Source of the DNA: a virus
Reading direction: 5' to 3' (one strand)
DNA: 22,985 nt
IMG/VR virus record: IMGVR_UViG_3300029448_000187
Location: 10,811-33,795 of that record
The translations under genes and the position numbers were made by a program. The notes beneath the pieces are model-generated. The model ran no database searches. It was not told the origin of the DNA and saw only the letters and a program-made list of their open reading frames with translations. Shown here piece after piece: positions 8,397 to 22,985 of the stretch (positions within the stretch are counted from its first letter, which is position 1; every line of letters begins with the position of its first letter).

Positions 8397-11002
8397 TAGA
8401 AAGTAACCTCCGCAATAATTGAATTAACTTGTAATGATAAAGGTGCAGATTGACTAATAGAAACTTGAGGATCTTTAGAATAACCAAGCAATCTAAATTC
8501 TTTCTTGCCATTAACTGGGGTTCTATCTTCACTTAGATCATCAGTAACCTGTCTAATAATTAAATTCTTAGAGTTAACAGAACAAGACAAAGTATTATTT
8601 AAATCTAGTATAACTTTGTTTAAACTTCTTGGCTCACCAGTAAGAGGTCCAGTTTGAGCCATAGTATCTATAGGGTTTGTTTTTAAATTAACGCTAAAGC
8701 TATAACCAATTTCAGCTTTAGTTAAAGAATTATCTACTGCCGATACATCAATGTTCCCACTAGCAACAGTAAACTGACCAAGATAGTGAGTCCCAGAGAT
8801 GACATCGAGAACTGCTCCGTTAGCGAAATCAGAGCTGACTGAGAAAACCCCACTAGCACCGTAGTAAGTTTTAGCCATATCAGTATTAAAACTACTGTCA
8901 AACTCGCAAAGAATATATTTATGAGTACCATCTCCTTTATCAAATTTGATTACAGTATATACTCTAGTATCTATTGTACAAATAGAATGAAATGCTCCTT
9001 GACTTGTAAACTGTGTCCATCCGTATCTTTGCTCACCTCTGTTAGAATTAAATACAGATAGTGTACCATCACCATCAACAATAAAATAATAGCTCTCATT
9101 TCTATTAATACCTCCAGCTAAAACTGTAGCTTGTGTTGGAGTCTTTATTAAATGAGAAGCAAGACTTGATATAGGCTGACCAGTATAAGCATTTTGAGAA
9201 TCATCAAAAAGCATTTCTCTTACAATCTCACCAGAACTTTGTATATATACAGTCGCACCATCAAATACATAAGGCTTTACAAAAGCAGAACCAAAAGGAG
9301 TTTGTCTTTTTATTGTAGCATTTGTAGGGGTTGTAGGCTTCTCTATAAAAGCTGGAACAACAAATTCATCAGTAGATGTAAAGCATTGCAAGTCTCTATT
9401 AGAAACTAAATGCCGTATAGTGTTTACTTCACCAATGGTTGCTGTGATATCAATAGCATCATTGTCAGATGCATCACCAGTATCAAAGCTAAAAAACTGG
9501 TTTGATTTGCTAGACCATAATCCGTCAGGTTGAGATATAGTTCCCCCAAACCATAATCTGTTTTGATGAAAGGTAACAGCACCTGGAAATCCTCTAAGTG
9601 TTGAATAAGATTGTTCAGACCAATTAGTAGCAACAGCATGTGTTTCAAGACTAGGAGTACCTCCACCAGCTGCTGAATCATTTGCATTGGCTGCCGCATT
9701 AAAAGTAAAAGTATTATCGTCTATTACTTCAGCAACAGTTCTAGCTCCGTTAATATTAGAATTAGCAATACCTCCTACTGTATTTGCATTTGTTACAGTA
9801 AACGCATCATTAACAGAAAAACCATGATTAACTAAAGTAACTTCAATAGTAGCAACTCCGTTATTAGTTCTTAATGAATCTATCTTTAATTGTTTCTTTA
9901 AAGCAGCCAAACAATTCCCAGTAGCTTGTGTAGTAGACTGAACAGAAACAATAGTTATTTCTTGGTCATGGTACTTAACAGTAATCCCCACATGCTTTGA
10001 ATCAGCGTAATCACCTCCAGATTGAGAGCCAGTAATATCCCAGTAAGCTTCACTTGTTGTTAAAGTAATTCCATTACCAGAACTAGCAGAAGGATCTAAT
10101 GTAACACCAAGATCTTGAAACTGATAATAAGGTTGATAAATCTTTGCTCCAGCAGATTGAGTGTCAAATGTAAATGTTTCAACACCAAAAGAAGTAAGAC
10201 CAGTTCTTACTAATTTTCTTACCATAAAAGTCTGATGACATATAAACATTACGTCACCTGACTGAGCATAAGTAAGTTCATGCAAATTAGATGCAGTAAA
10301 AGGTAAGGCAGCAGAATTTGCATCTTGAGTAATAGTAGTAGCTAATGAAACATTATTACTTGTGTCTATTTGGAAAACTCTAATTTTTAAATGCTCTAAA
10401 GAAATTATATATCTTTCATCATCAGAGAATATAAAAGGAACAAGTCTATGCTGAAGAACATTATCAACAGTAAAATTTGTAACTGCTAATCGAGTAGCAT
10501 CAGTAGAAGATACAGATAAATTCTTTCCATCAAAGACATCATCTCTAACAACTGTAACAACGGCAGCCGAAGGATTAGCTACAGTAAATCCAGATATAGC
10601 ATTAATAGCAGTATATAAATTATCTGCTACAGTATCATTACCTTCGTTTGATCTAACAAAATGTTTATTGCCAACAGATGCACTTGGGCTACTACCACCA
10701 GCAGTTTCAAACTCAATAGTTATAATAGTGCCATCACTTTTCATAAATTTAATTTGAGAGCCAACAACAATGTTGGCATAATCTGCAACTGTAATTGTAA
10801 AAGAAGCTTTGTCTGTTGTAGTATCAAACTCATATATCTTAGACATACCAGCTCTTTTTATAACACCACCTTCTGCTCTTAAAAAAAAGTTTTCAATCTT
10901 TTGTGCAGAGTTATTATAAACTTTTGTATCTGTTCTTGATATTAAACTAGGGCTTACTTCTCCAAACTGGAAGTTAGTAAGAGGTACTTTTGCTTTCTGC
11001 AT
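8396..11002 (-). CDS. Tail tubular protein B (nozzle), T7 gp12-like
   Basis: This 868-residue protein forms the tail nozzle in T7-like virions. The N-terminus carries the usual family opening: PLTNFQFGEVSPSLISR, then NSAQKIENFFLRAEGGVIKRAG. Further in are RNLQCFTSTDEFVVP-type and GFPGAVTFHQNRLWFGG segments typical of this family (the FHQNRLWFGG motif is at about residues 480-490). It is somewhat longer than T7 gp12 (about 794 residues), because of beta-rich insertions in the first half. Start and stop both overlap their neighbours as TAATG. Confidence 0.93.
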   Translation of the reverse strand: MQKAKVPLTNFQFGEVSPSLISRTDTKVYNNSAQKIENFFLRAEGGVIKRAGMSKIYEFDTTTDKASFTITVADYANIVVGSQIKFMKSDGTIITIEFETAGGSSPSASVGNKHFVRSNEGNDTVADNLYTAINAISGFTVANPSAAVVTVVRDDVFDGKNLSVSSTDATRLAVTNFTVDNVLQHRLVPFIFSDDERYIISLEHLKIRVFQIDTSNNVSLATTITQDANSAALPFTASNLHELTYAQSGDVMFICHQTFMVRKLVRTGLTSFGVETFTFDTQSAGAKIYQPYYQFQDLGVTLDPSASSGNGITLTTSEAYWDITGSQSGGDYADSKHVGITVKYHDQEITIVSVQSTTQATGNCLAALKKQLKIDSLRTNNGVATIEVTLVNHGFSVNDAFTVTNANTVGGIANSNINGARTVAEVIDDNTFTFNAAANANDSAAGGGTPSLETHAVATNWSEQSYSTLRGFPGAVTFHQNRLWFGGTISQPDGLWSSKSNQFFSFDTGDASDNDAIDITATIGEVNTIRHLVSNRDLQCFTSTDEFVVPAFIEKPTTPTNATIKRQTPFGSAFVKPYVFDGATVYIQSSGEIVREMLFDDSQNAYTGQPISSLASHLIKTPTQATVLAGGINRNESYYFIVDGDGTLSVFNSNRGEQRYGWTQFTSQGAFHSICTIDTRVYTVIKFDKGDGTHKYILCEFDSSFNTDMAKTYYGASGVFSVSSDFANGAVLDVISGTHYLGQFTVASGNIDVSAVDNSLTKAEIGYSFSVNLKTNPIDTMAQTGPLTGEPRSLNKVILDLNNTLSCSVNSKNLIIRQVTDDLSEDRTPVNGKKEFRLLGYSKDPQVSISQSAPLSLQVNSIIAEVTF

Positions 11003-22019: not shown

Positions 22020-22072
22020 AAAGAATTGCTTGTGTCACCTACCCAGCCGACCCTCGACACAAGCAATTCTTT
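22020..22072. terminator. 17-bp perfect stem, terminator-like
   Basis: The 17 bases at 22020-22036 (AAAGAATTGCTTGTGTC) pair perfectly with 22056-22072, with a 19-base C-rich loop. On the minus strand the stem is followed by a run of six T, a good intrinsic terminator for leftward transcription. On the plus strand the tail is only TTCTTT, so termination there would be weaker. It may close the first rightward transcript, or be part of a structured RNA. Confidence 0.5.
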
Positions 22073-22144
22073 ACATATAGTTCGCTAGTCGCTCACCTAT
22101 TTTTTAACGTAAGAAATATGGCTCGCAAGCTCGCTAGGTTTATC

Positions 22145-22180: not shown

Positions 22181-22240
22181 CAGACAGAGAGAGGGGACTC
22201 CTTGAGGGTGAGTGTTGCGCGACTCTCAATTGGATTAACC

Positions 22241-22270: not shown

Positions 22271-22284
22271 AATAATATGCCGAT

Positions 22285-22360
22285 AGCATACTGTTCCCAT
22301 CTCGAGTAAAGGTTTCCCTTCGGCTCGTTCCTCGACCTTGACTCTTGGGAACTGCATGCT
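22285..22360 (+). ncRNA. Long leader stem before the 86-residue gene
   Basis: Bases 22285-22299 (AGCATACTGTTCCCA) pair with 22346-22360 in 13 of 15 positions. After an internal loop, GAGTAAAGGT (22304-22313) pairs with ACCTTGACTC (22335-22344) in nine of ten. The loop has 21 bases, and its CTTCGGCTC (22318-22326) is repeated just after the stem (22361-22369). The stem ends about 20 bases before the ribosome site, so it could modulate translation of the next gene. Confidence 0.5.
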
Positions 22361-22391
22361 CTTCGGCTCAAAGTTTTTAAAGGAGAAAGCT

Positions 22392-22652
22392 ATGTTAAAA
22401 TTTGTAGAAGATATAAATAATTTAAGTGTAGGTACTGTGTTAAATGAATATGATGATGCATACATAGAAGATTATCATTACTTTAAACTGAGAAGAAACA
22501 ATGACATTCAAATATGGAGTCTTGATGATAAGCATTGGAAGTATGAATTAAATAATGTAGGTAATGAAATGCATCCAAAGGCTAGCTTTAAATCTTTGAT
22601 GCAAGCATTGAGGCATGGTTTAATGTGGAATCATATAGATGAAAAGGAATAG
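22392..22652 (+). CDS. Hypothetical protein of 86 residues
   Basis: The protein begins MLKFVEDINNLSVGTVLNEY and is acidic at first, with YFKLRRNNDIQIWSLDDKHW in the middle and FKSLMQALRHGLMWNH near the end. I recognise no family. ATG 22392 is preferred over ATG 22338 because AGGAG lies six bases upstream and the upstream region is taken up by the leader stem. Codon use is AT-rich like the late genes. Confidence 0.82.
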   Translation: MLKFVEDINNLSVGTVLNEYDDAYIEDYHYFKLRRNNDIQIWSLDDKHWKYELNNVGNEMHPKASFKSLMQALRHGLMWNHIDEKE

Positions 22653-22691
22653 ATGTTGGTGACTCTTTCTAAATGCTTATGGTGGCAGCCA

Positions 22692-22874
22692 TTATATAAA
22701 CTCACAGCCACAGATGGCTTGGGTTTATATAAGTTTAAGTTGTCATTAGTGAAAGAGGTGATCTTGAAACCAAAAGAAAGATCAGCCAATACTAACCTAA
22801 GTAGGGAGAGGGTTTCGTCAACGATTAATCCCCTACATGTGAGTGTCTTATTACTCCTTGTGTAAGGCACTCAC
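22692..22874 (+). ncRNA. Chain of four hairpins, candidate structured RNA
   Basis: Stem 1: TTATATAAACTC (22692-22703) with GGGTTTATATAA (22721-22732), capped by AGCCA-CAGA-TGGCT. Stem 2: TGATCTT (22759-22765) with AAGATCA (22778-22784), flanked by TTAGT/ACTAA. Stem 3: GTAGGG (22801-22806) with CCCTAC (22831-22836). Stem 4: GTGAGTGTCTTA (22839-22850) with TAAGGCACTCAC (22863-22874), one G-T pair. AGCCAT (22686-22691) could compete for ATGGCT in stem 1. No known riboswitch, tRNA or tmRNA was recognised. Confidence 0.5.
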
Positions 22875-22890
22875 CATTGTATGTAACCAG

Positions 22891-22919
22891 TTGATTTTAT
22901 TATTTAAATTTAATATAAT
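22891..22919 (+). promoter_or_regulatory. Strong sigma70-like promoter
   Basis: TTGATT (22891-22896), a 17-base AT-rich spacer, and TATAAT (22914-22919). Expected start near 22926, giving a very short leader of about 12 bases with the AGGAG ribosome site at its start. It drives the last gene and lies directly after the hairpin chain. Its form implies use of the host RNA polymerase. Confidence 0.8.
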
Positions 22920-22937
22920 TTCTATAGGAGAAAGCTT

Positions 22938-22985
22938 ATGACTGATGAAGAATTTAGTTATTCAAAAGAAATCTTACGACAAATA
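22938..22985 (+). CDS. Start of a gene that runs off the right edge
   Basis: Sixteen codons are visible: MTDEEFSYSKEILRQI. AGGAGAAAGCTT precedes the ATG, nearly the same ribosome-site text as before gene 22392. Too little is seen to assign a function. Confidence 0.75.
   Translation, partial: MTDEEFSYSKEILRQI

Follow-up and report, generated by a model that had tools for sequence, protein, structure and literature searches.

Two separate structured elements in place of one candidate RNA between a small gene and a promoter of an uncultured phage, with a conserved leader motif upstream

Do four hairpins that follow one another within 183 bases of a phage genome, in the space that separates a small gene from the next operon's promoter, form a single new phage RNA? 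The question was raised for positions 22692-22874 of the window, a stretch of 22,985 nucleotides which comprises bases 10,811-33,795 of a 33,795-b uncultured virus contig. The original prediction, made from the letters alone, proposed a candidate phage RNA with a possible switch between two pairings and named covariation among homologues and an Rfam search as ways to check it. The contig has a G+C content of 36% and carries leftward late genes (terminase, portal-type connector and capsid) as well as rightward early genes that start at about 20.8 kb. Its nearest isolate by terminase is EXVC031P Hodr, a SAR11 phage (64% at the amino acid level). The virus is probably an uncultured marine phage related to the pelagiphages, and SAR11 bacteria are its probable hosts. 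Few marine viruses are as abundant as the phages of SAR11, and no pelagiphage small or non-coding RNA was found in the papers that could be searched. Just left of the window, at about position 10,730 of the contig (G000:C1, L005), there is a scaffold gap, a short stretch of undetermined bases that gives four X residues. The elements of the locus are as follows.

22392-22652, plus strand: gene for an 86-aa protein of the family MLK..DIQIW (MLK..YxRLKxxGDIQIW), ending in DEKE* (DETPK* in the empty allele described below)
22692-22732, plus strand: stem 1, 13 + 5 bp with one bulge
22759-22765 with 22778-22784, plus strand: stem 2, 7 bp
22801-22836, plus strand: stem 3, 6 + 2 bp
22839-22874, plus strand: stem 4, 12-13 bp plus 2, a hairpin between the gene end and the next promoter
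22891-22919, plus strand: sigma-70-like promoter of the next operon, TTGATT-17-TATAAT, kept in many relatives

All four stems were found where they had been placed, two of them (stems 1 and 4) with G-U pairs, and the adjoining promoter is a good sigma-70-like match that relatives have kept. On the plus strand positions 22692-22874 fold with -62.2 kcal/mol, compared with -38.2 ± 3.8 for shuffled sequences (z -6.3; none of 200 was as good), while the minus strand reaches a z of only -3.3. The stems are therefore real and exceed chance, and the difference between the strands agrees with the claim that the symmetry is that of RNA rather than DNA. The proposed switch between AGCCAT (22687) and ATGGCT (22714) did not survive, as forcing this pairing costs about 17 kcal/mol (from -84.5 to -67.7). 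No family of Rfam release 15 exceeded its gathering cut-off in the window, nor was any tRNA or tmRNA found there with ARAGORN or the Rfam model RF00005. What could be upheld of the candidate RNA was its plus-strand-specific fold and its absence from Rfam, but not its unity: the 183 bases are two unrelated things, an optional structured insertion and a set of gene-end hairpins, because stems 1 and 2 lie in an insertion that is missing from both other alleles, stem 3 has arms that do not vary, and stem 4 is optional.

The insertion became apparent from the contig itself. Its two ends overlap, as in a circular or terminally redundant genome, and this overlap is broken by the following segment.

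22645-22794, plus strand: insertion of 150 b, replacing one C of the empty allele and containing stems 1 and 2

Positions 1-77 of the contig correspond to 22568-22644 of the window and positions 79-269 to 22795-22985, with 95% identity, so that the contig's own 5' copy lacks 22645-22794 and shows the empty junction GATGAAA followed directly by CACCTAAG (G000:C1:77-80). The same empty junction, GATGAAA and CACCTAAG, is present in L004/L007, the only close relative of the adjacent gene in IMG/VR. Downstream of the insertion the window is identical to L007 except in the stem-3 loop, while about 10 positions differ in the 5' copy of the contig itself. With the insertion, the 86-aa protein terminates in DEKE instead of DETPK. 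Since the near and the far copy are both empty, the simplest history suggested by the three alleles is a recent gain in the lineage of the window, with recombination as a possible alternative history of this allele. Neither a second copy of the insert in the genome nor terminal inverted repeats were seen. A structured segment is thus present in one allele and missing from others, and the empty allele can serve as a control.

When the insert was folded alone, a branched structure was predicted in which the two stems of the original prediction were only two of five helices, P1-P3 having been missed.

22650-22794, plus strand: closed RNA fold of the insertion, predicted from one sequence
22650-22660 with 22785-22794, plus strand: P1, a 10-bp stem joining the two ends of the insert
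22663-22669 with 22751-22757, plus strand: P2, in the long arm
22680-22689 with 22739-22748, plus strand: P3, in the long arm
22692-22710 with 22715-22732, plus strand: P4, identical to stem 1, an 18-bp hairpin at the tip of the long arm
22759-22765 with 22778-22784, plus strand: P5, identical to stem 2

The free energy of this fold was -48.9 kcal/mol (z -5.0 to -5.7), and none of 1000 dinucleotide shuffles was as stable; the minus strand of the insert gave a z of -2.1. That the fold closes upon the ends of the insertion may be taken as a sign of an RNA unit, which is suggestive only, as the two ends also pair in 16% of the shuffles. P3-P5 were stable in all contexts folded. In longer contexts a pairing of 22653-22677 with the stem-3 region competes with P1 and P2, being almost isoenergetic in some of them, and it is a better competitor than AGCCAT/ATGGCT. 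A single RNA made up of stem 3 and the insert was also considered, given the possible pairing between stem 3 and the insert's left end, and was not adopted.

Homologues of the insert were sought widely. None was found in IMG/VR with exact 22-mers or a pattern of the P4 arm, by blastn against phages or against 22 related virus records, in 397 SAR11 genomes, or in Rfam. The sole match to the P4-arm pattern, L029, comes from a G+C-rich contig and is a palindrome without relation to the insert. Recurrent matches of 84% between SAR11 genomes and 22750-22792 all fall in a single part of the conserved coding gene atpD and represent one chance match. Because no homologue was found in these searches, the fold of the insert is a prediction from a single sequence.

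Starting from the observed polymorphism with its exact junctions, the plus-strand fold, and an optional hairpin with modest covariation, we regard the insert as a structured RNA cassette and stems 3 and 4 as a separate, dispensable set of 3'-end hairpins, a reading to which we give an even chance. The insert would be transcribed together with the upstream 86-aa gene, and its transcript would fold into the closed branched RNA. Double-strand-specific cleavage at the 18-bp hairpin might then free it to act as a phage small RNA, while stems 3 and 4 would close the upstream transcript, whose stop codon ends at 22652, before the next promoter at 22891. An RNA cassette is plausible at this place since L014 has a tRNA-Trp(cca) gene (L014:1338-1411) in the corresponding slot, between the gene end and the hairpin. 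The insert resembles phage tRNA genes in intergenic slots in being a putative structured RNA that follows the stop of a variable small gene and precedes the pre-promoter hairpin; unlike them it is not a tRNA and has a predicted branched fold of its own.

Instead of an RNA gene, the insert might be a passively acquired piece of DNA, such as a palindrome-bearing miniature element or a scrap of illegitimate recombination, with hairpins that have significance only as DNA or none at all. It exists as a single copy in one allele and has no homologue, and hairpins come and go at this site between near-identical relatives, as in L020 and L021. Against this, the plus-strand fold is clearly better than the minus-strand fold (z -5.7 against -2.1) and uses G-U pairs, and neither terminal inverted repeats nor a second copy in the genome were seen. 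We therefore consider a passive insertion a serious but somewhat unlikely explanation. Going further than the structured cassette, one could suppose that the insert is a horizontally mobile small-RNA gene cassette, gained by one strain of the phage, which acts on the host or on other phage transcripts and occupies a slot where relatives have a tRNA gene and other hairpins; this we think unlikely.

Stem 3, in contrast to the insert, is shared by all three alleles. In the empty alleles it is located at the stop codon of the 86-aa gene; its arms are invariant and its loop varies, with 26 extra bases in L007 (L007:2834-3050) that form a CCCCTTGAGGG hairpin of their own. Elsewhere, stem 3 was found only in the contig of L004. 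Stem 4 has positional equivalents with quite different letters (CGTGTC..GACACG) upstream of the promoter in a subset of the relatives. In 11 distinct sequences of this kind 89% of 15 pairs are kept, and the covariation score is 0.196 against 0.109 ± 0.015 after shuffling, with the restriction that the rows from the window itself did not fit into this register. Only 2 of the 15 pairs changed on both sides, a count matched in 365 of 500 shuffles. Covariation of the stem-4 equivalents thus appears modest. Beside the same upstream gene, a pre-promoter hairpin of about 44 b with ATTT flanks is present in L021 and L022 and absent from L020 and L023.

Stem 4 could also be a protein-binding DNA dyad, that is an operator or activator site of the downstream promoter, and in the window 16 b separate its symmetric arms from the -35 hexamer downstream. 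This is improbable, however, because many relatives (L018-L020, L023, L032 and L036-L045) have this promoter without the hairpin in front of it, so the promoter does not need it. Moreover, transitions in the arms of its equivalents produced U-G and no C-A, as predicted for an RNA of the plus strand, although no more than about four independent events are visible. A dispensable hairpin fits better than an operator, and a role at the 3' end of the upstream transcript would suit its position. Stems 3 and 4 are like intrinsic terminators in that they contain G+C, follow a stop codon and precede the next promoter; but none of stems 1-4 has a U tract within two bases on the plus strand, and as no T run follows stems 3 and 4 they are not canonical intrinsic terminators.

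A single metagenomic contig is the source of the insertion allele, which lies less than 350 b from the contig's end, and the two ends of this contig carry different alleles, which might point to a chimera of the assembly. Yet the empty allele matches the two flanks base for base in the same order, an in-register rejoining that would not be expected of a chimera, and the downstream flank occurs independently in L007, from another sample; an assembly artefact is thus very improbable. Least probable of all is that the 70-codon frame 22653-22865 encodes a small protein, for although a Shine-Dalgarno-like AAGGA precedes its ATG at 22653 by five bases, only the insertion allele contains this frame, which crosses stems 3 and 4, non-coding in the other alleles, matches no protein family and has no tblastn match, so that the view of the stems as lying outside any gene could be maintained.

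A further structured element, here called motif M, was detected 320-420 b upstream of the reported stems.

22282-22370, plus strand: motif M, an element of about 100 nt with four stacked helices closing the apical segment CCCTTCGGC

Motif M occurs in about 40 related uncultured contigs, usually once in each (L004:4880-4988, L018:2047-2155, L046:1017-1123, L195:3931-4039, L311:161-267 and others). From these contigs 32 distinct versions were collected, and RNAalifold was applied to 30 of them. It returned 25 pairs in four stacked helices, with compensatory changes in 19 of the 25. Paired bases filled 95.7% of the cells, compared with 30-46% when partners were slid by one to three columns, a control that is somewhat favourable because this alignment had also served to derive the structure. 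Doubly changed cells numbered 122 as against 29 ± 5 after shuffling, and the covariation score was 0.512 against 0.159 ± 0.013. In L195 and L311 the helices consist of almost wholly different letters, which gives compensatory changes that are independent of the alignment-derived structure. The invariance of CCCTTCGGC and of helix P4 of the motif (AAGG/CCTT) is due in part to their use in collecting the set. Covariation, which had been suggested as a check on the four stems, is therefore clear in motif M, whereas among those stems it reaches only the modest level of the stem-4 equivalents.

These comparisons make motif M a well-supported conserved structured RNA of a new family, present as a leader in about 40 related uncultured phage contigs. 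In most contigs it lies directly before the ribosome-binding site of a gene of the 86-aa family, which in turn usually follows it directly; another gene stands downstream of it in L030 and L046-L050. The 86-aa protein had no match in PHROG or Pfam. From its position motif M may be a regulatory leader of the downstream small gene. It shares with 5' leader regulatory RNAs the location upstream of a Shine-Dalgarno sequence, the association with a small gene family and strong covariation, but differs from them in that no ligand, protein partner or family of homologues is known for it, and in preceding a different gene in the contigs just mentioned. Motif M was found neither in 197 SAR11 genomes, nor in the isolates EXVC031P Hodr and HTVC034P, nor in the records of L006, L008 and L009, and it is absent from Rfam. 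In the phage collection no isolate carried the downstream gene, the 86-aa family or motif M. A looser scan for the motif gave mostly chance matches in G+C-rich phages. Permissive Rfam matches near motif M were to eukaryotic miRNA and snoRNA models and lay far under the cut-off; like Rfam families, the insert and motif M fold in an RNA-like manner, but no family reaches its gathering score in the window.

Two other hairpin-like features lie in the same part of the window. A long, perfect-looking hairpin, AAGAATTGCTTGTGTC..GACACAAGCAATTCTT, is located between small genes at 22021-22073. The sequence GTGAGTGTTGCGCGAC at about 22210-22235 has a similar counterpart, GCGAGTGTTG with CGC or GCG after it, in many relatives, where it also lies upstream of motif M; this is possibly another hairpin element.
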